The translations under genes and the position numbers were made by a program. Shown piece by piece: positions 478 to 63,830 of a stretch of 64,000 bases of DNA (position 1 is its first letter; each line of letters starts with the position of its first letter). The notes beneath the pieces were generated by a model. That model did no database searches and was not told the DNA's origin. It saw only the letters and a program-made list of their open reading frames with translations. The stretch is taken from NCBI GenBank assembly GCA_002712715.1, contig PAUF01000007.1:201286-265285 (forward strand), written 5' to 3'. The stretch comes from Flavobacteriales bacterium (lineage in GTDB: Bacteria; Bacteroidota; Bacteroidia; Flavobacteriales; BACL11).

Positions 478-1611
478 ATGAGATTTATATCAGCAGATTG
501 GATTTTCCCGTTATTTAAAGATCCGATTAAAAATGGAGTAGTTCAAATATCAGAATTAGGAGAAATTATTGAAGTTTTCAGTTCGAAAGATAGATTATCT
601 TTTAAACAAATTGAAGTTTATAATGGCATAATCTGTCCGGGATTTATTAATGCTCATTGTCATTTAGAGCTTAGCCACTTACATAATTTGTACAACAAAG
701 GATCAGATTTTATTGACTTTATTAAGATAGTAAAGAAACGAGATCTTTTTTCAAAAGATCAAATTTATAAGTCTATTCGAAACGCGGAAAATCAGATGAT
801 AAAAAATGGCATAGTTGCAGTAGGCGATATTTGTAATACTAGCGACACAATAGATCAAAAGAAAAAAGCAAATTTGCAGTATCGCAATTTATTAGAAGTA
901 TTTCAAGTAAATAATGAGAAGGTTGAAGAAACAGTAAACAAAGCTAAATTGCTAAAAAGTCAGTTTGTTTCAGAAAATTTAAACGTTAATATTGTTCCAC
1001 ATTCCTCATATAGCGTTACCCCAAAGCTAATGAGTCGAATTAAAGATATGTTGTCAGAAGAATCATCAATATTCTCCATTCATATGCAAGAAACTATTTA
1101 TGAAAAAAAATTATTTAAGGACAAAACAGGGCCATTAAAGGATTGGCTTATCAGTATTGATGCGGATCCGACTATTTGGGAAAGCTTTACAAGCCCGCTT
1201 CACTCAATTTCCCAGATTAATTCTAATAACATTTTATTAGTTCATAATACGTATAAGGAAAAAAAATGTAATAGCAATTATTATTATTGTACTTGCCCTA
1301 ATTCAAACCTCCTTTTAGGATCCAAGTTGCCAAATTATAATTTATTTGATATAGAGAGGCTGTGTGTTGGCACAGATAGCTTAGCCTCTAATGATAAACT
1401 TTCGGTTTTGGATGAATTACTAACTATTCAATCCAACTCTAATTTCAGTTTAGAAACACTCTTAAAGATCGCTTCAAAAAATGGAGCTAAAGCCTTAAAT
1501 TTTAATAAGCTAGGAACTTTTGAGAAAGGAATGATTCCCGGAATCAACTTGTTACAGAATATCAAAAATTTTGAGTTAACAGAAGAAAGTAAGGTTGTAA
1601 AATTATTATAA
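478..1611 (+). CDS. Amidohydrolase family protein (SAH/chlorohydrolase-like deaminase)
   Basis: Motifs PGFINAHCHLELSH, IHMQE, CVGTDSLASND. Confidence 0.85.
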   Translation: MRFISADWIFPLFKDPIKNGVVQISELGEIIEVFSSKDRLSFKQIEVYNGIICPGFINAHCHLELSHLHNLYNKGSDFIDFIKIVKKRDLFSKDQIYKSIRNAENQMIKNGIVAVGDICNTSDTIDQKKKANLQYRNLLEVFQVNNEKVEETVNKAKLLKSQFVSENLNVNIVPHSSYSVTPKLMSRIKDMLSEESSIFSIHMQETIYEKKLFKDKTGPLKDWLISIDADPTIWESFTSPLHSISQINSNNILLVHNTYKEKKCNSNYYYCTCPNSNLLLGSKLPNYNLFDIERLCVGTDSLASNDKLSVLDELLTIQSNSNFSLETLLKIASKNGAKALNFNKLGTFEKGMIPGINLLQNIKNFELTEESKVVKLL

Positions 1612-2256
1612 ATACAAGTTTAATAATTTCAAATCAGACTTTGTTGTAATTTTAATATTTGATTCTTCGCCTTCGATGGTGATTAATTGCCCCCCTTTAG
1701 AAATAAAAGCAGAAGCGTCATCAGTAAAGTTTTTAAAATCATGTTTTTGATATAGATCTTTAATTTCGAGGCTGTTGAATACTTGAGGGGTTTGAACTTT
1801 GGAAATGTTATCTCTATCCAAATAGTTTATTTTTCTATTTTGGGTGATAATTATAGAATCTTTAGATTTGATTATTGGAATTACGGCATGCCCAGATAAG
1901 TAATTGTCATATAATTTCTTAATTAATTTTATAGAAATATTGGGCCTTACGCCATCGTGAATTGCAACAATAGATTCTTTGTCAATTTCATTTAACCCTT
2001 CTCGAACTGATTCAAATCGGTTATTTCCTCCTGTTATAACTTTATGTATAAGATTAAAGGAGTGTTTTTCACATAGCTTTTTCCAAGTTGATAAATGAGA
2101 TTTAGGTATTACAAGAATTATTTCATTTACAAAAGAAAACTTATGTAAAGTATTCATTAGTATTGGAATACCATTATACTCAACAAACTGTTTTGGTGTC
2201 TTTGATTTAAATCTACTACCAACACCTCCAGCAACAATTAAAGCTGTTCTTTTCAT
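1606..2256 (-). CDS. ispD: 2-C-methyl-D-erythritol 4-phosphate cytidylyltransferase
   Basis: ALIVAGGVGSRFKSKTPKQF, HDGVRP, VQTPQVF motifs. Confidence 0.93.
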   Translation of the reverse strand: MKRTALIVAGGVGSRFKSKTPKQFVEYNGIPILMNTLHKFSFVNEIILVIPKSHLSTWKKLCEKHSFNLIHKVITGGNNRFESVREGLNEIDKESIVAIHDGVRPNISIKLIKKLYDNYLSGHAVIPIIKSKDSIIITQNRKINYLDRDNISKVQTPQVFNSLEIKDLYQKHDFKNFTDDASAFISKGGQLITIEGEESNIKITTKSDLKLLNLYL

Positions 2257-2257
2257 T

Positions 2258-3316
2258 TTAAGGCAAAATTAGCATTGCGTCTCCAAATGTGAAAAAATTA
2301 TATTTCTTTTTAATTGCTTCTTGATAGGCTTTCATGATGTTTTCATATCCTCCAAATGCGGCTACTTGCATTAAGAGGGTAGATTTTGGAAGATGAAAAT
2401 TTGTCACCATACAATTTGCAACTTTAAAGTTGTATGGTGGAAACATAAATTTATTTGTCCATCCCTTCATAGGTATTACCAAATTGTTAGTAGTTGTAGA
2501 GCTTTCTATCGTTCTATTTACAGTGGTCCCAATAGAACAAATTCTTCTGTTACTTACCTTTCCCTCGTTTATAATTTTTGCTGCATTTTCTTGAATTTCA
2601 ACTTCTTCGGAATCCATTTTATGTTTTGACAAATCCTCTACATCAATTGATCTAAATGTTCCAAGACCCACATGCAGAGTGATTTTAGGCAACATTACTC
2701 CTTTTATTTCTAACCGTTTCATTAGTTGCTTACTGAAATGAAGTCCTGCGGTAGGCGCCGCAACAGAACCATTAGATTCAGCAAAAATTGTTTGATATCT
2801 ATCGTTATCTCTAGCTGTAGGTTTTCTGTCTATAAATTTTGGAAGCGGAGTTTGACCAAGCGAGTCTAAAGTTTCTTTAAATTCTTCATGAGTGCCATCA
2901 TATAAGAACCTTAGTGTCCTTCCTCTGGAAGTTGTGTTGTCAATAACTTCGGCAACCAAATCGTCATTTTCTCCAAAATATAATTTGTTGCCAATCCTGA
3001 TTTTTCTGGCAGGGTCTACTAATACATCCCATATTCTATTTTCTTGATTTAATTCTCTTAATAAAAAGACTTCAATTCTTGCTCCGGTTTTTTCTTTATT
3101 ACCAAACATTCGAGCTGGGAAAACTTTAGTATTATTGAAAACCATTATATCTTTTTCTTCAAAATAGTTGATTATGTCTTTAAAACGTTTGTGTTCAATT
3201 TCTCCACTGGATTTATGAAGCACCAGCAGTTTAGACTCGTCTCTTTCCTGAGCAGGCGTTTGTGGAATCCTTTTTTCAGGAAGATTAAAATTAAAGTGAG
3301 ATAGTTTATATTTCAT
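2258..3316 (-). CDS. queA: S-adenosylmethionine:tRNA ribosyltransferase-isomerase
   Basis: [53 protein letters not shown]. Confidence 0.96.
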
Positions 3317-3343
3317 AATAAGTTTTTTTTAGAAAAGAGATTA

Positions 3344-3351
3344 CAAATATA
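3344..3351 (-). promoter_or_regulatory. -7 element TATATTTG upstream of queA
   Basis: Exact TAnnTTTG, 27 nt before ATG. Confidence 0.55.
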
Positions 3352-3398
3352 CAGTATGAAAACACAGAAGTCAATGAAAATTTGCATTTTATATGAGT

Positions 3399-4097
3399 TT
3401 ACAAGAAATCTTTCATTGTTAAGGAGTTAGATAATTTATAGTCGCCTATTTGAGTTCTTTTTAGAGAGGTTAAATATGAACCACTATCAATTTTTTTTCC
3501 AAAATCATGAACTAAAGTTCTAATATATGTGCCAGAACTGCATTCTACTTCGAACATTACATGAGGGATTTTAATATTAGTAATATGAAAATTGTGAATT
3601 TGAATTTCTCGAGGATCAATGTTAAGATTAATGTTTTTTCTCGCTAACTTATATAATCTCACCCCATTTTTTTTTATAGCAGAAAACATTGGAGGCTTTT
3701 GATAAATCATTCCTAAGAAGTTATCAACATTGTTTCGAATTATTTCAGGATTTATATGAGATATAGGGTATATTTGATTTTCATAAGTTTCTCTATCATA
3801 TGATGGAGTAGAGGCCCCCAACTTCATTTCCCCGCAATATTTTTTTTTTAATTTTTGAATTTCAGATATTCTTTTTGTTAGCTTCCCAGTGCAAATTATT
3901 AATAACCCTTCAGCTAGCGGATCTAATGTTCCAGCGTGACCAACTTTAATTTTTTTTAAATTACAAGTTTTCTTAATAAAAGATCTGATTTTTTTAACAA
4001 CATCAAATGAAGTCCAGCCAATCGGTTTATTTACTAATATTAGGCAGCCTTCAATATAATCTAAATCAGAATTAATTTTGGTAACAGGTTCAATCAT
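3399..4097 (-). CDS. truB: tRNA pseudouridine(55) synthase TruB
   Basis: GCLILVNKPIGWTSFDVV, KVGHAGTLDPLAEGLL, SSGTYIRTLVHDFG. Confidence 0.95.
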   Translation of the reverse strand: MIEPVTKINSDLDYIEGCLILVNKPIGWTSFDVVKKIRSFIKKTCNLKKIKVGHAGTLDPLAEGLLIICTGKLTKRISEIQKLKKKYCGEMKLGASTPSYDRETYENQIYPISHINPEIIRNNVDNFLGMIYQKPPMFSAIKKNGVRLYKLARKNINLNIDPREIQIHNFHITNIKIPHVMFEVECSSGTYIRTLVHDFGKKIDSGSYLTSLKRTQIGDYKLSNSLTMKDFL

Positions 4098-4900
4098 AAT
4101 TTTACTAGTAGATAAATTATAGCGCCAATAGAGATGCAGTAAAATGAAAAGTATTTAAGTTTGCTGTGTTTAACTAGGGAAATCATCCATTTGCAAGCCA
4201 ACATACCAGTAATAAATGCGCTTATAAAACCCAGTAATAGTGGGAAAAACCAATCCACCCCTTCAATCATCATTTTATCTGAAAAGTCAATCGATAGAAT
4301 ATCTTTCCCCATTTTTCCAAATATGATAGGAATTACCATTAAGAAAGAAAATCGAGCAGCTTTTTCTTTATCAATTCCCAATAGTATAGCTGTTGATATT
4401 GTAGCTCCTGATCTAGAAATTCCGGGTAAAATCGCGATAGCTTGAGCTATCCCTAAATAAATTGAATCGACAGGGCCAACTTGTAATTGTTTTTTTTGTA
4501 CTATATCTGAAATAAACAGCAAAACTCCTGTAAGGATTAGCATTATCGAAACAAGGTCTAAGCGGTCATTAAATAAACTTTCGATTTTCTCTTCATATAT
4601 TAGTCCAATAGCAACAGCTGGAATTGTAGATATTAAGATATTGAGGGTAAAATTTACAGATGACTTATCATTTCTAAAAACACCTAAAAATAGAGTCTTA
4701 ATGTCTTTCCAGAAAACAACTATCGTGCTTAAGGCTGTTGCAAAATGAAGAGTTACCGTCATCATCAAACTATCTTCAGGAATACTCTCATCTCCAAGCA
4801 GATATTTTCCTATTTCTAAATGGCCACTGCTACTTACAGGCAGAAACTCGGTTAACCCTTGAATGATTCCAAGAATGATTGATTCAAAAAGGCCCAGCAT
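4094..4900 (-). CDS. uppP: Undecaprenyl-diphosphatase UppP/BacA
   Basis: GIIQGLTEFLPVSSSGHL and PGISRSGATIS motifs; stop overlaps truB start (ATGA). Confidence 0.95.
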   Translation of the reverse strand: MLGLFESIILGIIQGLTEFLPVSSSGHLEIGKYLLGDESIPEDSLMMTVTLHFATALSTIVVFWKDIKTLFLGVFRNDKSSVNFTLNILISTIPAVAIGLIYEEKIESLFNDRLDLVSIMLILTGVLLFISDIVQKKQLQVGPVDSIYLGIAQAIAILPGISRSGATISTAILLGIDKEKAARFSFLMVIPIIFGKMGKDILSIDFSDKMMIEGVDWFFPLLLGFISAFITGMLACKWMISLVKHSKLKYFSFYCISIGAIIYLLVKL

Positions 4901-5146
4901 TTATATTTCTTTTTTTTGCGCAAAAATAGCTATTAGATTTATAATAAATCCAAGAATAATTAATATTACAGATAGGGTTAATTTTGATCCAAACATCATG
5001 TCCTTATCAAATACACTTCTGTCTACAGAAGCTTCCCCAGGCATAATAAGTAGCCCAATTATAATAAGTACAATTCCGCCAACAATTGTAAAATAACTTC
5101 TTTTTGTTAGTGCAAATTTGTCAAAAGATTCATTTTGTTTTTTCAT
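4901..5146 (-). CDS. DUF3098 family small membrane protein
   Basis: 81 aa, two TM segments, located between ftsX and uppP as typical in Bacteroidota. Confidence 0.75.
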   Translation of the reverse strand: MKKQNESFDKFALTKRSYFTIVGGIVLIIIGLLIMPGEASVDRSVFDKDMMFGSKLTLSVILIILGFIINLIAIFAQKKEI

Positions 5147-5155
5147 ATTCTTGAT

Positions 5156-6049
5156 TCAATTAAAAAGTTCATTTTCATTAGTGCTTAGGTATTTTTTAAC
5201 TGCAAATAAAGTGGAGATCCAAGCGATTATAATCCCAAAGATAATAATTGATACAAATATAACACCAATTTTAAAAAAGTCTTGAGGCTCAATTATATTT
5301 GGGGCAAACCACTGGAGTGTTTCTAAAGATAGGATTAATAAAATCACAGAAAAAATGCCACCAATAAGACCTTGATACATTCCATCTTTCAAATATGGTC
5401 TTTGAATAAATAAGTTTGTCGCTCCTACTAATCTCATAGTTTTAATTAGCATTTTTTTGGAATAGATTGATAATTGAATGGTATTATTAATTATGCCATA
5501 TGAAACAATTATCAAGATAAGACTAAATATTAATAGGATTATATTTATTGTATTAATCGAGTTATCAATGTTTTGAATTAGTATTTTATCATAGCTAAAT
5601 TCATGTATAATCTGTTGATGATTAAATTTGCTGATATAATTTTTCATGATATCGGCTCCTTTACTGGATACAAATTCGGAATGTAGATTAATGTCAAAAT
5701 GCGATAGTAAAGGATTAAATCCATCTAATATAGTTATAAAGTCTTCTCCAATATTATTTTGAAAATCAATTGATGCTTCATTTCTAGATTTGAAGTTTAC
5801 TATACTATCTTTAACTAGAGGTGATTTTGAAAGATAATCATGTAGATCACTCCTCCAAACTTCATAGTCCTCATGATTTGAGAAATCTTCTTTATTCTGC
5901 AAATAAATCGTGAAGTCAATATTTTCTTTAATTCTATTCGAAAAGTCCGGCCATAGAGCTAAAAACACAAAAACTAAGCCTATAATAAAACATACAAGAG
6001 ATAAGCTTGTAATGGTAGAAATTGAAATAGATGATTTATATCGGCTCAA
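5156..6049 (-). CDS. ftsX: Cell division ABC transporter permease FtsX
   Basis: N-terminal TM, periplasmic domain, C-terminal FtsX-type TM with TMRLVGATNLFIQRPYLKDGMYQGLIGG; TTG start as supplied. Confidence 0.85.
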   Translation of the reverse strand: MSRYKSSISISTITSLSLVCFIIGLVFVFLALWPDFSNRIKENIDFTIYLQNKEDFSNHEDYEVWRSDLHDYLSKSPLVKDSIVNFKSRNEASIDFQNNIGEDFITILDGFNPLLSHFDINLHSEFVSSKGADIMKNYISKFNHQQIIHEFSYDKILIQNIDNSINTINIILLIFSLILIIVSYGIINNTIQLSIYSKKMLIKTMRLVGATNLFIQRPYLKDGMYQGLIGGIFSVILLILSLETLQWFAPNIIEPQDFFKIGVIFVSIIIFGIIIAWISTLFAVKKYLSTNENELFN

Positions 6050-53370: not shown

Positions 53371-54210
53371 TTAGTTTGCTTTAGTTTCTGCCTCAGAAAT
53401 TTTCATTGGATACCTTTTCTTAATATACTCTTGATCACAATTTGGAAGTTGAGAGAACTCCATTCCGTATTTTTCTATTGCATACTCTCTTCTTATTTCG
53501 TTATATGCTTGAGTCAGCAAATTTTGCACTTCTATATATACTTTATAAGATGTGCCTTCTTGATTTTGAAGAGAGACAATAGCTTTTTGAGGATTATCTG
53601 AAGACGACTCATCCGCCAAAGGATTTAATTTATAATTATATTCATATCTAACTTTACCTTTAAAGGGACTTTTCTGCCATGAAATATTTCCTTCATCATC
53701 TGTTGTTCTAACTTGCTTCTTATTTTTATTTAGTTCTTTAATTAAAGGTTCATTTCCGCACAAACCATCACAACTTACAAAAACATCATTTTTCGTCAGG
53801 TCACCGTACCAACATCCATTAACAACTTTTGCGCATTTATCTTCACTTGGTGCGTATTGAAATTCGCTAATATTTCTTCTGTTATTTATGAATTTCTTTA
53901 ATTCTTCTAATAGAGGTTTTTTTGCTCCATTTTCGATGATGTTATATGTCCCTGATGCATCTATTTCTACTTTATTTGTTGGAACTCCCTGTCCAGCTAA
54001 AACCTTATTATTTTTATTTACAAGAACAACAAATATATTTCTTTTGTGAACTTCAGGCGTTTCAATTTTTTCTTCAGGCATTGGAGGTAGTTTTCTTGAA
54101 ATACCACTATCAACATCCATTGTTGTAGTTGCTAAAAAGAAAATAAGTAACAAGAAAGCTATGTCTGCCATCGATCCTGCGTTTATTTCTGGTAATCCTC
54201 TTCTTGCCAT
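53371..54210 (-). CDS. ExbD/TolR family protein with long Cys-containing periplasmic insertion (279 aa)
   Basis: LPEINAGSMADIAFLLLIFFLATTTMD TM; insertion DKCAKVVNGCWYGDLTKNDVFVSCDGLCGNEP. Confidence 0.88.
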   Translation of the reverse strand: MARRGLPEINAGSMADIAFLLLIFFLATTTMDVDSGISRKLPPMPEEKIETPEVHKRNIFVVLVNKNNKVLAGQGVPTNKVEIDASGTYNIIENGAKKPLLEELKKFINNRRNISEFQYAPSEDKCAKVVNGCWYGDLTKNDVFVSCDGLCGNEPLIKELNKNKKQVRTTDDEGNISWQKSPFKGKVRYEYNYKLNPLADESSSDNPQKAIVSLQNQEGTSYKVYIEVQNLLTQAYNEIRREYAIEKYGMEFSQLPNCDQEYIKKRYPMKISEAETKAN

Positions 54211-54212
54211 AT

Positions 54213-55439
54213 TTATATGTTTGTATTTATTGTTCTAACAAAATATGCAATCATCCCCCAGACTATTAACAGGCACGCTATTAAAATTAGATACAGGGTC
54301 ATAGTGATTAATATTCCTCCAATAGTTCCATCGGAAGAAATTATAGAGAAGCTAACCACTGATATTAATCCTAAAAATGTAAATAGAATTTTTCTAATAA
54401 ATTTCCAACCTAGATTAATAATATTCATAATAATTTTAGTTATTAAACTAACAAAAACCCCTAGTAATGAGGATATTATTGCAATTATAAATACCCCTAA
54501 TAACATATTTATAATTGTAGTATTGTAGACGTCATTGAATAGCCAAACATCCCCAATAATCCATCCTATTAAAATAGCTCCGCATATAATCCCAAAAGAA
54601 GTCAAAAGTCTTATAAAATAAGATGATCCATGGTTAGTAAAATTTTTAATCAGATTTAGTATAATGCTAATAAAAATTCCAATTATAGCTAAAACAAATG
54701 TAAAAGTGAATATCCCTAGTAATGAACTAATGAAACCAGTATCATTCGCATTTATAAAAGTTCTTGTGTCTCCTTGACCAAGAACTACATCAAATTCGCC
54801 AAATAACCACAGATCTCCAATAATCCATCCGAATAAAATAATTAAACCCACCACTCCAAACTTTATAGATGAGATTACCATATGTTTAGCTCCAAAGAAT
54901 GAGATTTTAGAAAACCAACTAATTCCACCAAAACTAATAATGCTTAAGAAAACGGTTACTAATAACATTATAGGATTCCATATAGGCCCCATAATTGAAG
55001 TTACTGTTAGTTTTTCGCTATCATTTATTTCAGGGTTTATTGATTCAGGATTAGTCCAGTGATTCCATTCTAAAGGAACAGCCTCATCTATATTTAAAGC
55101 TAATTTAGTCCATTCATGTGGTTGAGAAACAAACATTGTCTCATTACATAATTCAAAGAAACTTAGTTTGTTAGGCATATCGGAATTTATAGGATTATTC
55201 ATAATTAGAATCACATCTAGAAGAAAAATCCAATATACTAATCCCCATAGTGATCCGAATATTAGCTGTTTTCCAGCCTTTGGGTCTCTACTCTTGATAA
55301 TAAATCCTGCTGGGAGCGCGAAAAAAGGAAGCAATCTGGATATTAATCCATAAGGCTTTTTATTCGCTAGATTAACTATAACTGTAGCAAAAATAAATAT
55401 TAATGCAAGGGATAATATTATCCAAAGTATTACAGTCAT
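54213..55439 (-). CDS. Multi-TM membrane protein with internal duplication, between exbB and exbD
   Basis: Repeated GWIIGDLWLF / GWIIGDVWLF segments, many hydrophobic helices. Confidence 0.75.
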   Translation of the reverse strand: MTVILWIILSLALIFIFATVIVNLANKKPYGLISRLLPFFALPAGFIIKSRDPKAGKQLIFGSLWGLVYWIFLLDVILIMNNPINSDMPNKLSFFELCNETMFVSQPHEWTKLALNIDEAVPLEWNHWTNPESINPEINDSEKLTVTSIMGPIWNPIMLLVTVFLSIISFGGISWFSKISFFGAKHMVISSIKFGVVGLIILFGWIIGDLWLFGEFDVVLGQGDTRTFINANDTGFISSLLGIFTFTFVLAIIGIFISIILNLIKNFTNHGSSYFIRLLTSFGIICGAILIGWIIGDVWLFNDVYNTTIINMLLGVFIIAIISSLLGVFVSLITKIIMNIINLGWKFIRKILFTFLGLISVVSFSIISSDGTIGGILITMTLYLILIACLLIVWGMIAYFVRTINTNI

Positions 55440-55446
55440 TTAATTA

Positions 55447-56493
55447 TTATTTTCTTCTTTTTCTAGAAGGTTTGTTACTATGAACTACTAATAGGTCAAC
55501 TAAACTGATTGATGCATCTTCCATTTCATTAACAATACCATCTACTTTAGAAATTAGATAATTATAAAATAATTGTAATATCATAGCAACTATAAGACCA
55601 AAAACTGTAGTAAGTAAGGCTACTTTGATACCACCTGCTACTAGAGAAGGTGAAATGTCTCCAGCTCCTTCTATCGCATCAAAAGCTCCGATCATTCCAA
55701 TAACTGTTCCCATGAATCCTAACATGGGAGCTAATGCTATAAATAATGAAATCCAAGAAAGACCTTTTTCTAATTGTCCCATTTGGACTCCTCCATATGC
55801 AACGATAGATTTTTCTACTTGATCTATGCCTTCTGAAGATCTGTCTAGTCCTTGATAGAAAATTGAAGCAATAGGGCCTCTAGTATTTCTGCAAATTTCT
55901 TTAGCTGATTCTAGTCCTTTTTTGTTTAAGGCTTCTTCAACATTTCCTAGTAATTTTTGAGAATTTGTTGAAGATAGGTTTAAATAAATTATTCTTTCAA
56001 TTACAAGAGCTAGTCCAAAAATTAAACAAAGAAGAACTATTGACATGAAGAACGCTCCTCCCTCATAAAATTTATCTTTTAAAACTCGAGTCCAACTTTT
56101 TTCCTCAATGACTTCTTCTCCACTATCATTCATCATATCTTCTCCACCATTACTAATCACATCTTCACTGCTGTCACTAATCATTATATCTTCTCCGCTG
56201 TCACTCATCATCTCATCTTCAGTTTCATCACTTATTAACGCCTCCTCAATTTCATCATTAAACTCATCAATAATTTCCTCCATTTCAGCTTCCATCTCTT
56301 CTGAAATAGCTTCAATTTCTTCAGAGAATTCTTCAATAATATCCTCCGTCTCGCTAATGATGTCTTCCATCTCTTCAGCAGCCTCTTCTAAACTTTCTAT
56401 CTCTTCAGTTCCAAAAATACTAAATTGAGATTTTGACTCTATAGAGGTAAAAAAGAATGCGAACAAAGTTATTAATACTAGTAATTTTTTCAT
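55447..56493 (-). CDS. MotA/TolQ/ExbB proton channel family protein with signal peptide and acidic N-terminal region
   Basis: ExbB core: LERIIYLN...GPIASIFYQGL...APMLGFMGTVIGMIGAFDAI...ISPSLVAGGIKVALLTTVFGLIVAM. Confidence 0.92.
   Translation of the reverse strand: MKKLLVLITLFAFFFTSIESKSQFSIFGTEEIESLEEAAEEMEDIISETEDIIEEFSEEIEAISEEMEAEMEEIIDEFNDEIEEALISDETEDEMMSDSGEDIMISDSSEDVISNGGEDMMNDSGEEVIEEKSWTRVLKDKFYEGGAFFMSIVLLCLIFGLALVIERIIYLNLSSTNSQKLLGNVEEALNKKGLESAKEICRNTRGPIASIFYQGLDRSSEGIDQVEKSIVAYGGVQMGQLEKGLSWISLFIALAPMLGFMGTVIGMIGAFDAIEGAGDISPSLVAGGIKVALLTTVFGLIVAMILQLFYNYLISKVDGIVNEMEDASISLVDLLVVHSNKPSRKRRK
56114..56215. repeat. Short tandem repeat, 4 units of 24/24/27/27 bp (coding, ExbB acidic region)
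   Basis: TCTTCTCCACTATCATTCATCATA / TCTTCTCCACCATTACTAATCACA / TCTTCACTGCTGTCACTAATCATTATA / TCTTCTCCGCTGTCACTCATCATCTCA. Confidence 0.85.
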
Positions 56494-59906: not shown

Positions 59907-61064
59907 ATGCCGAGATACCATAAATTAGGAAAAATACCTCATAAAAGACACACCGCCTTTAGAAAACCAAATGGTGATATTCATTACGAAGAGCTTTTTG
60001 GGATGGTTGGTTTTGATGGTATGTCATCATTATTATACCACTTGTATAGACCTACTCAAGTAAAAGCAATTAAGGAAGCTTATTCAGTATATCCGGAAAT
60101 TGCTGTAGAAAAGAATTTAAAATCATATTTGCTAAAAGGATTTGAAGCTCCAAAGAAAAAAGATCATTTAAACAGTAGAATATCGATTATGATCAATAAT
60201 GATTTAAATGTTTTATTATCTGCTCCAACTAATCTTCAGGAAGATTATTTTTACAAGAACACCGATGGGGATGAAGTTATTTTTGTTCATAAAGGGTCAG
60301 GAATTTTAAGAACATTTGTTGGTAATATAGAATTTTCGGAAGGAGATTATTTAGTCATACCCAGAGGAATCATTTATACACTTAAATTTAATACTGATAA
60401 TAATAGATTGTTCATTGTTGAGACGTATTCTCCAGTTTACACTCCAAAGCGATATCGAAATTATTTTGGACAGTTATTAGAACATTCTCCATATTGTGAG
60501 CGTGATTTACGATTCCCCACTGATTTAGAAACTCATGATGAAAAAGGAGATTTTATTATTAAGATAAAGAAAGAACATATGATACATGAGTATACATATG
60601 CATCTCACCCTTTTGATGTTGTAGGAGTGGATGGATATAATTTTCCATACGCGTTCTCTATTCATGATTTTGAGCCTATTACAGGTAGAGTTCATCAACC
60701 TCCTCCTGTACACCAAACATTTGAAACAGCAGGTTGTGTAATATGTTCTTTTTGCCCAAGAATGTATGATTATCATCCTGAATCTATTCCTGCTCCTTAT
60801 AATCATTCAAATATAGATTCTGATGAAGTTTTATATTATGTAGATGGAGACTTTATGAGTAGAAATCATGTGGAAGAAGGATATATTTCTCTGCATCCTG
60901 CAGGTATACCTCATGGACCTCATCCTGGAGCTGCAGAAAGAAGTATTGGTCAGAAATCTACTGATGAACTTGCTGTAATGATTGATACATTTGCTCCATT
61001 AAAATTAACTAAGTCAGCAATTGAGTTGTCTGACGGTAAATATCATAAATCTTGGATTGAATAA
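59907..61064 (+). CDS. hmgA: Homogentisate 1,2-dioxygenase
   Basis: MPRYHKLGKIPHKRHTAFRKPNG, FVHKGSGILRT, YHHES-type metal region PHGPHPGAAERSIG. Confidence 0.93.
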   Translation: MPRYHKLGKIPHKRHTAFRKPNGDIHYEELFGMVGFDGMSSLLYHLYRPTQVKAIKEAYSVYPEIAVEKNLKSYLLKGFEAPKKKDHLNSRISIMINNDLNVLLSAPTNLQEDYFYKNTDGDEVIFVHKGSGILRTFVGNIEFSEGDYLVIPRGIIYTLKFNTDNNRLFIVETYSPVYTPKRYRNYFGQLLEHSPYCERDLRFPTDLETHDEKGDFIIKIKKEHMIHEYTYASHPFDVVGVDGYNFPYAFSIHDFEPITGRVHQPPPVHQTFETAGCVICSFCPRMYDYHPESIPAPYNHSNIDSDEVLYYVDGDFMSRNHVEEGYISLHPAGIPHGPHPGAAERSIGQKSTDELAVMIDTFAPLKLTKSAIELSDGKYHKSWIE

Positions 61065-61068
61065 AATT

Positions 61069-62226
61069 ATGAAAGAAGATCTATCAAAAATTAATACGAA
61101 AACTTATAATTTAGAGAAGATTTTTTCTAAAGCAAAGGATTTTTTGCCTTTATATGGAACGGATTATGTGGAATTTTATGTAGGAAATGCAAAGCAAGCA
61201 GCTCATTTTTATAAGACCGCTTTAGGGTTTCAGTCTTTAGCGTATGCAGGATTAGAAACAGGAGTTAAAGACAGGACTTCTTATGTGGTTTATCAAGATA
61301 AAATTCGATTAATGTTCACTACTCCAATGTTAACTGGAGGTGAAGATATTCATGATCACATTAAAAAACATGGTGATGGAGTTAAAGTTATTGCATTATG
61401 GGTTGAAGACGCTACAAAAGCTTGGGAGGAAACTACAAATAGAGGAGCTGAATCATATTTTTCTCCAAAGGTGACATCTGATGAAAATGGAGAGGTAGTT
61501 TGTTCTGGAATAAAAATATATGGAGATACAGTTCATGTTTTTGTTGAAAGAAAAAATTATAAAGGAACTTTTATGCCAGGTTTTGAAAAATGGGAATCTA
61601 ATTATAATCCTCCTAATTGTGGATTAAAATATATAGACCATATGGTTGCAAATGTGGGATGGGGAGAGATGAATGTTTGGGAAGATTTTTATAATAAGGT
61701 CATGGGTTTTGCGAACTTAATTACATTTGATGACAAAGATATTTCGACGCAATACACTGCTCTAATGAGTAAGGTTATGACAAATGGCAATGGAAGAATT
61801 AAATTTCCAATAAATGAACCTGCTGAGGGATTAAAGAAGTCTCAAATAGAAGAATATTTAGATTTTTATAATGGTCCAGGTTGTCAGCATATAGCTGTTG
61901 CTACTAATGATATTGTCAGTACGGTATCTGATATGAAAAAAAGAGGTATTGAATTTCTTTCAATTCCAGACACCTATTATGACACTTTATTAGATAGAGT
62001 TGGAGATATTGAAGAGGATGTCATAACACTGAAAAAACATGGAATCTTAGTAGATAGGGATGATGAAGGATATCTATTACAAATATTTACAAAGCCACTA
62101 ACAGATCGCCCAACATTATTTTTTGAAATTATACAAAGAAAAGGAGCTCAATCATTTGGGAAGGGTAATTTCAAAGCGTTGTTTGAATCAATTGAAGCTG
62201 AACAAGCTCGAAGAGGAACGTTATAA
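61069..62226 (+). CDS. hpd: 4-hydroxyphenylpyruvate dioxygenase
   Basis: DYVEFYVGNAKQAAHFYKTALGF, YIDHMVANV, GCQHIAVATNDI, FFEIIQRKGAQSFGKGNFKALFESIE; ATG at 61069. Confidence 0.95.
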   Translation: MKEDLSKINTKTYNLEKIFSKAKDFLPLYGTDYVEFYVGNAKQAAHFYKTALGFQSLAYAGLETGVKDRTSYVVYQDKIRLMFTTPMLTGGEDIHDHIKKHGDGVKVIALWVEDATKAWEETTNRGAESYFSPKVTSDENGEVVCSGIKIYGDTVHVFVERKNYKGTFMPGFEKWESNYNPPNCGLKYIDHMVANVGWGEMNVWEDFYNKVMGFANLITFDDKDISTQYTALMSKVMTNGNGRIKFPINEPAEGLKKSQIEEYLDFYNGPGCQHIAVATNDIVSTVSDMKKRGIEFLSIPDTYYDTLLDRVGDIEEDVITLKKHGILVDRDDEGYLLQIFTKPLTDRPTLFFEIIQRKGAQSFGKGNFKALFESIEAEQARRGTL

Positions 62227-62249: not shown

Positions 62250-62705
62250 ATGAACAAACTATCAATTGGAGATAAAGCTCCTTCTATTAACTCGATAGAT
62301 CAAAATGGTGAAAAGATTTCGTTAGATAATTTTCTTGGCAAGAAGGTAGTATTGTATTTTTATCCAAAGGATATGACTCCCGGATGCACTGCTCAATCAT
62401 GCAATCTTCGTGATAATTATGAGAATCTCTTAAATTCAGGATATGTTATATTAGGATGTTCTGCAGATAGCCCACAGAAGCACAAGAAATTCATTGAAAA
62501 ATATGACTTGCCTTTTAATTTAATTTCTGACGAAAATAAAGTTGTTTTGAATGATTATGGTGTTTGGGGCCTGAAGAAGTTTATGGGTAAGGAATATGAG
62601 GGGATTATAAGAACAACCTTTATTATTAATGAACAAGGTATAATTGATGACATAATTACTAAAGTTAAAACTAAGGACCATACTTCACAGATTATCCCCT
62701 CTTAA
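62250..62705 (+). CDS. bcp: Thioredoxin-dependent thiol peroxidase (BCP family peroxiredoxin)
   Basis: VLYFYPKDMTPGCTAQSCNLRDNY. Confidence 0.94.
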   Translation: MNKLSIGDKAPSINSIDQNGEKISLDNFLGKKVVLYFYPKDMTPGCTAQSCNLRDNYENLLNSGYVILGCSADSPQKHKKFIEKYDLPFNLISDENKVVLNDYGVWGLKKFMGKEYEGIIRTTFIINEQGIIDDIITKVKTKDHTSQIIPS

Positions 62706-62715
62706 GTATATCGAT

Positions 62716-63735
62716 ATGTTAAAAATGAAAAAAATATTACCATTATTAATATGTATAATTTTTATATTTTCTTGTGGAAATCATGATAATGAGAAAACTA
62801 TTTTTATTTTAGATTTGTCTAATGAAAGTTTGTTAAAATCATCTCCTTTAGAAGGAGTTGATGATGAATCGGATAGTTTAATTAATTTATCTTCTACTAT
62901 ATTAAAATCAAGATTAGATAGGTATATATATGAGAATAAATCTAGTTATTTTGGAGGTAATCTTCCAAATCTTAATAGAGGGGAGGTGTCAAATCAAATT
63001 ATTATAGATTTCCCTCTAGCCTTTACTGATTTAGAAATAGCAAGGATTAAAGATTTAATAGAATGTAAAGGGAAAATTGAATTTTGGGAAACTTATAATT
63101 TTTCTGAAATTTATGATGATTTTTTAAATGCTTTCGAATCATCTCCAGAGTTTTCATCTTTAATTTCTAAAGGGTTTTTTATTCCCAATATAACATCAGA
63201 AGGCACCATTTCAGAGAGTCCTGTAATTGGCGATATACATGTTGAAGCCAAAGATTTGTTCGATTCTTTAATTAATGAGGATTATTTTTTAAACTTATGG
63301 GACAAAGATCTTTACTTGGCTTATGGTGCTAAGAATCATAATTCCATGGGAGAGGATTTTCATCCTGTTTTAGCTCTAAAAATGAATGGGATTGAAGGTT
63401 ATAGATTGGATGGTTCTGTGATTAGCTATGCTAGTGTTACTAGAAGTGAGTATGATCCATCACAGATAGTGATAAATTTGGAGATGCTTGCCCCTGGTAA
63501 GAATGGAGAGCGAAAGTGGTTTGATATTACTGAAGATAATGTTGGAAGATCTGTTGCTGTTGTTTTAGACGGCGAGGTTAAAACATTTCCTAATATAAAT
63601 GAACCTATTAGTGGAGGGCGTAGTCAAATTTCAGGTGTTTTTTCCCTCCAAGAAGCTCGAGATATTGCAAATGTTTTGTCACTTGGTGAGTTGCCATTAG
63701 ATGTTAAGGTTTCAGATTATATTATTAAGAAATAA
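62716..63735 (+). CDS. Lipoprotein resembling the SecD first periplasmic domain, without SecD transmembrane bundle
   Basis: IFIFSCGNHD lipobox; GKIEFWETYNFSEIY and VAVVLDGEVKTFPNINEPISGGRSQISGVFSLQEARDIANVLSLGELPLDVKV match SecD P1 motifs; ends without TM helices. Confidence 0.75.
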   Translation: MLKMKKILPLLICIIFIFSCGNHDNEKTIFILDLSNESLLKSSPLEGVDDESDSLINLSSTILKSRLDRYIYENKSSYFGGNLPNLNRGEVSNQIIIDFPLAFTDLEIARIKDLIECKGKIEFWETYNFSEIYDDFLNAFESSPEFSSLISKGFFIPNITSEGTISESPVIGDIHVEAKDLFDSLINEDYFLNLWDKDLYLAYGAKNHNSMGEDFHPVLALKMNGIEGYRLDGSVISYASVTRSEYDPSQIVINLEMLAPGKNGERKWFDITEDNVGRSVAVVLDGEVKTFPNINEPISGGRSQISGVFSLQEARDIANVLSLGELPLDVKVSDYIIKK

Positions 63736-63743
63736 AAAGTTTG

Positions 63744-63830
63744 CGGTGAGGAAGGGATTCGAACCCCCGAAACGATTTCTCGTTTACACGCTTTCCAAGC
63801 GTGCGCCTTAAGCCACTCGGCCACCTCACC
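63744..63830 (-). tRNA. tRNA-Ser (anticodon GGA)
   Basis: Revcomp GGTGAGGTGGCCGAGTGGCTTAAGGCGCACGCTTGGAAAGCGTGTAAACGAGAAATCGTTTCGGGGGTTCGAATCCCTTCCTCACCG: 7-bp acceptor stem, GGTTCGAATCC T-arm, long variable arm, CTTGGAAAG anticodon loop. Confidence 0.96.

Follow-up and report, generated by a model that had tools for sequence, protein, structure and literature searches.

The window considered here, a stretch of 64,000 nucleotides from a metagenome-assembled genome of the order Flavobacteriales, contains a gene encoding a stand-alone SecD P1 protein with no translocase motor, and the observation that led to this study is confirmed as real. The gene is a lineage-specific partial duplicate of the host's own secDF, and this account of anatomy and origin, taken as a joint claim, is well supported and can be held with high confidence. 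The reading favoured beyond this, at about even odds, is that of a maintained duplicate (complete P1 behind a lipoprotein signal peptide, motorless) whose lipid-tethered SecD head would have as its periplasmic partners polypeptides in export, chaperones, or SecDF/BAM.

The protein and its genomic setting

The features of the locus are as follows (positions are those of the window).

59907..61064, forward strand: homogentisate 1,2-dioxygenase-like gene (hgd), operon neighbour
61069..62226, forward strand: 4-hydroxyphenylpyruvate dioxygenase-like gene (hppD), operon neighbour
62250..62705, forward strand: bcp-type peroxiredoxin gene (AhpC-TSA), 10 nt upstream of the stand-alone gene and presumed to share its operon
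62716..63735, forward strand: stand-alone SecD-P1 lipoprotein gene, 339 aa (open reading frame list, Pfam, NCBIfam, PDB, AlphaFold2/Foldseek)
62716..62775, forward strand: type II signal peptide with lipobox FIFS-C20 (from the sequence)
62788..63081, forward strand: P1 base part, aa 25-122, with at most 38% identity to every SecDF; LGLDLKGG motif lost
63406..63696, forward strand: SecDF_P1_head (PF22599), aa 231-327
63743..63830, reverse strand: tRNA-Ser(GGA), facing the gene and closing the variable slot on its right

The gene starts with ATG (a second ATG lies at codon 4, 62725), and its product consists of a type II signal peptide ending at Cys20 followed by a complete SecD P1, with nothing beyond: there is neither TM2-6 nor SecF. 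The original prediction, which had proposed a lipobox followed by SecD P1-like sequence, is thus borne out by the sequence, Pfam, NCBIfam, the PDB and the predicted fold alike; its description of the protein as a SecD head alone holds as far as the head is concerned, while the base is in fact retained too. The profile check that it suggested gave a clear match to PF22599 (E 4.3e-20) together with two NCBIfam matches, both partial (SecDF, 3.6e-39; SecD, 5.9e-20), the score of 134.5 bits falling well short of the whole-protein cut-off of 1037. The best solved relatives in a PDB sequence search are the P1 structures of Thermus SecDF (3aqo, E 9.4e-13). An AlphaFold2 model, built from 61 P1 sequences that include SecDF and so not independent of SecDF homology, has a pLDDT of 85 and a pTM of 0.82, and when compared with the PDB using Foldseek it found only SecDF at E ≤ 0.001, over some 315 alignment columns that take in both base and head, a likeness that is more than chance.

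What is shared with the Thermus structures (3aqo, 3aqp, and the I- and super-F-form entries 5xam, 5xan, 5xap and 5yhf) is therefore the base and head fold and the conserved head motifs. Thermus SecDF also has TM helices, a proton relay, SecF, the LGLDLKGG motif and TM1, whereas the stand-alone protein has none of these and carries a lipid anchor in place of TM1. The membrane-proximal LGLDL(K/R)GG motif is absent, only 3 of the 12 conserved positions of its region being kept and the GG missing. Tested as a SecD translocase, the protein has the P1 periplasmic domain with its P1 head but lacks the RND-type motor (six TM helices in SecD, twelve in SecDF) and its proton-relay Asp; in domain content it is SecD P1, yet with motor and motif both absent it is not a member of SecD. 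The reading frame stops, as predicted, without the six-TM bundle, at the point where SecD would pass into TM2, and tRNA-Ser(GGA) starts 7 nt on, so no TM segment can be hidden downstream by a frameshift, a possibility already thought unlikely at the outset.

The N-terminus reads MLKMKKILPLLICIIFIFSC-GNHDNEK, with an n-region, an h-region and then Cys20 (nt 62773-62775); with the cysteine marked it is MLKMKKILPLLICIIFIFS-C20-GNHDNEK. The signal peptide and lipobox Cys were called by eye, and the Phe at lipobox position -2 is atypical. The mature N-terminus, CGNHDNEK, contains none of the surface-export motifs with which it was compared (K-(D/E)2, Q-A-(D/E)2, SDDDD and SDDFE, as described for Bacteroidota lipoproteins in PMC5080379), for which reason the protein should face the periplasm. 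From these features we infer that it is probably exported by Sec, lipidated and oriented towards the periplasm.

Lying on the same strand as bcp and 10 nt from it, the stand-alone gene is probably the last of an hgd-hppD-bcp operon. The order of these three genes is kept in the family genomes where it was read, but the content after bcp differs: between bcp and tRNA-Ser(GGA) one genome (G011) has an unrelated 170-aa lipoprotein and another (G014) an unrelated 234-aa secreted protein. Given these differing contents, the stand-alone gene is best described as the occupant of a variable slot, and one might speculate that its signal peptide came from a former occupant. Differing, unrelated secreted or lipoprotein genes fill this slot in the window (62706-63742) and at two loci in other genomes (L166, L169). 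Integration at the tRNA-Ser seems unlikely: bcp is only 10 nt from the gene and no integrase occurs among the neighbouring genes read.

Origin from the host secDF and exchange of sequence

The genome does encode a full-length SecDF elsewhere, as the original prediction suggested checking, at a locus (L002) on a separate contig of 30.7 kb (C18). This is the closest relative of the stand-alone protein, with 63% identity over aa 75-332, compared with about 28-37% for the SecDFs of other family genomes, and a phylogeny of 38 P1 domains makes the two sisters (support 100/99). The host SecDF is itself unusual: relative to its counterparts it shows roughly 80% identity in TM2-6 and only 17-47% in the head, and in most head segments it is less similar to those relatives than they are to one another. 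The stand-alone copy carries the lineage-specific changes of this head, including a three-residue APG insert that is common to both copies and occurs in no other sequence of the alignment. The two differ in that the copy is motorless, is separately encoded and has a faster-evolving base; its branch length is 1.56, as against 0.19 for the host SecDF. Divergent SecDF heads, like that of L002, are also seen in one genus (g6).

Similarity between the two copies is mosaic, with near-identical stretches that constitute the marks of gene conversion in two tracts.

63082..63219, forward strand: gene-conversion tract 1, aa 123-168, EFWETYNFSEIY...SESP; 87% amino-acid identity to the host SecDF, 40-nt exact run
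63445..63636, forward strand: gene-conversion tract 2, aa 244-307; 79% amino-acid identity to the host SecDF, 54-nt exact run

Third-position identity between copy and SecDF is as high as 0.93 within the two tracts and 0.36-0.60 between them; correspondingly, dS is 0.16 over aa 125-168, 1.31 over aa 169-240 and 0.23 over aa 241-307. Compared with shuffles, the clustering of synonymous identity gave p values of 0.0009 for the lowest window, 0.0065 for the longest run and 0.04 for the highest window. Across the unconverted middle (aa 169-240) dN/dS is about 0.25. One would naturally ask whether the placement in the tree is a mere effect of conversion; this is rejected, as unconverted columns taken by themselves still pair the copy with the host SecDF (100/97), implying that the SecDF lineage of the host is the true source of the gene, part of which was overwritten afterwards, unless the two exchanged sequence. 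Conversion is not evidently a general habit of such pairs, there being no sign of it in the three other copy/secDF pairs tested (genomes G138, G402 and G387).

Distribution and constraint in the class

The suggestion that a phylogeny might reveal a conserved paralog fails at this point, since the sister of the gene is the host's own secDF, with which it has undergone conversion, and none of the 51 other family genomes (several of them incomplete) has a stand-alone P1 gene; from this absence it follows that the gene is not essential to the family. When 198 genomes of the order were examined, PF22599 matched a second time in six others: as another full SecDF in G028, as a match divided over two contigs in G311 and, in the remaining four, as short proteins or fragments with the head only, of which two (L157, L158) have no complete reading; no P1 lipoprotein occurs among those that were read.

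At the level of the class, where 148 Bacteroidia genomes of at least 95% completeness were surveyed, P1 lipoproteins (lipobox, base and head) were found in six other genomes: G182, G198, G138, G091, G147 and G116, the last having two. Loci bearing the P1 lipoprotein genes of other Bacteroidia, here and in the genus described next, are L113, L114, L115, L118, L137, L141, L143 and L220-L226. Like the protein of the window, they have a lipobox, a P1 base and head, and a frame ending at the P1/TM2 junction; unlike it, some adjoin secDF, at least one has a separate origin, and the marks of conversion are absent from the pairs tested. The genus of G138 has a P1 lipoprotein in 8 of 36 genomes, always with a lipobox, and in G138, G402 and G387 (loci L113, at 669-5466 on the minus strand, L222 and L226) the gene lies directly upstream of a full secDF on the same strand. 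At L141 (in G147) a gene for homogentisate dioxygenase is found close by, a resemblance to the window that is probably a coincidence. In the counterpart in G099 of the G182 gene (L116, 2637-3764, minus strand), one in-frame stop codon interrupts the sequence.

Six of the proteins from the genus of G138 form one clade (99/99). A tree forced to unite all stand-alone proteins is worse by 91 log-likelihood units with 7 rows (AU p 8e-7) and by 106 with 12 rows (AU p 6e-4), by which a single family is rejected, several of the rows being long branches. Since these proteins and that of the window do not belong to a single clade, the architecture arose at least twice, with vertical persistence in places; how many further origins there were is unsure, given the long branches of G091, G198, G147 and G116. 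A viral origin was also considered and dropped, no relative being found among viral contigs. A scan of genome contigs returned secDF genes only, although such scans favour well-conserved peptides and distant stand-alone genes could escape them. Quite separately, short PF22599 proteins of another type occur (L117, L119, L142, L155), consisting of the head only with no recognisable base and mostly having a type I signal peptide; L117 has an extra C-terminal region.

Where pairs of stand-alone genes could be compared with the SecDF P1 of the same genomes, dN/dS was 0.21 against 0.05 (G382-G404) and 0.25 against 0.12 (G138-G402), values by which the stand-alone genes look functional, although less tightly constrained than SecDF. 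A clean estimate of purifying selection comes only from the genus of G138, since conversion blurs that for the window gene. The positions kept in at least 85% of SecDF P1s were also counted in five stand-alone proteins. All five keep 25-29 of the 37 such positions in the C-lobe of the head (a count raised by conversion in the window gene, though not in G138, where conversion was tested for and not seen), while only 0-6 of 12 are kept in the LGLDLKGG region. Of the 35 in the base, four of the five retain 8-12 (the window protein 12), G138 being the exception with 22. In short, the head is retained in stand-alone proteins while the membrane-coupling motif and the base erode.

Possible function and alternative readings

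The head of SecD is thought to hold the polypeptide, its motion being driven by the membrane part (PMC8082313); in E. coli, P1 of SecD is needed for contact between Sec and BAM (PMC7695460), and its head is a predicted docking site for SurA (PMC9987972). P1 may be able to bind polypeptide even when separated from the motor. Having no motor, the protein could not use the proton gradient, and with the head kept, membrane coupling lost and a lipid anchor gained, it should be a passive, membrane-tethered holder or docking site. Such a head might bind polypeptides leaving SecY, or those chaperone and BAM partners for which SecD P1 is a docking site, and would thereby add to or tune the SecDF-dependent handling of envelope proteins; through sequence exchange with secDF it would keep pace with the host SecDF head, which changes fast. 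The role originally suggested, that of a secretion accessory factor or chaperone, may likewise apply. The original prediction knew of no described role, and likewise no published account of stand-alone SecD P1 lipoproteins was found in the open-access papers searched. They are nonetheless already visible, in that an annotation pipeline using PF22599 could give them a label; it is a functional account that was not found.

Several of the observations above point the other way, and might be taken to mean that the gene is a transient duplicate on its way to being lost, having gained a signal peptide but no lasting function and kept its likeness to SecDF through chance conversion. Presence across genomes is patchy, the branch is much longer than that of the host SecDF and the base is eroded, while the in-frame stop in G099 and the variability of the slot count against a maintained role, as does the fact that no operon partner conserved across genomes, which might have named a function, was found. 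Nevertheless, all 339 codons are intact behind what looks like a working signal peptide, dN/dS is about 0.25 where conversion has not intervened, a clade persists within another genus at dN/dS values of 0.2-0.25, and the combination of signal peptide and P1 has emerged repeatedly; transience is accordingly possible, if on the whole doubtful.

It could also be that the tethered head acts as a decoy, binding SecY, chaperones, BAM or SecDF itself so as to damp or redirect SecDF. This would suit a protein having the same domain as the partner-binding part of SecDF without the motor, kept matched in sequence to the host SecDF here and, in G138, G402 and G387, encoded immediately ahead of secDF; there is, however, no sign of dosage control, and in the genome of the window the gene is not linked to secDF, making such a role distinctly improbable. 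That the gene is an artefact of assembly or binning is scarcely credible, for while the host secDF is on another contig and completeness of the genome is about 91%, the gene is embedded in a contig of 590 kb, occupies a slot known from relatives, differs from SecDF at 40-60% of third positions in places, which no misassembly could produce, and has an architecture seen in other genomes.

To return to the tethered accessory factor, a bolder version, which we consider unlikely, would make stand-alone lipid-anchored SecD heads a class of export factors that Bacteroidia have invented repeatedly and that has gone unrecognised, with the two heads co-evolving by exchange in the present genome, where the copy could even be a donor that diversifies the SecDF head. 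The envelope of Bacteroidota is rich in lipoproteins and outer-membrane complexes. Having arisen more than once among Bacteroidia and being maintained by selection, these P1-only proteins probably serve a real purpose in the transport or protection of exported proteins, and they indicate that part of the core translocase has repeatedly been shed and reused in Bacteroidota. For the working of the SecD head without its proton-driven motor, natural head-only proteins offer test objects, whether for binding to preproteins, to SurA-type chaperones or to BAM. Some parallel exists in SecD2F2 of Vibrio, controlled by VemP (PMC11470409), which is likewise paralogous SecD material beside a housekeeping set, but which consists of complete motors, unlike the stand-alone protein of the window.

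Elsewhere in the window (53371-56493) there is an ExbB/ExbD-type cluster, in which the ExbB-like protein has a long acidic N-terminal extension and is separated from ExbD by a 408-aa multi-TM protein with no Pfam match.
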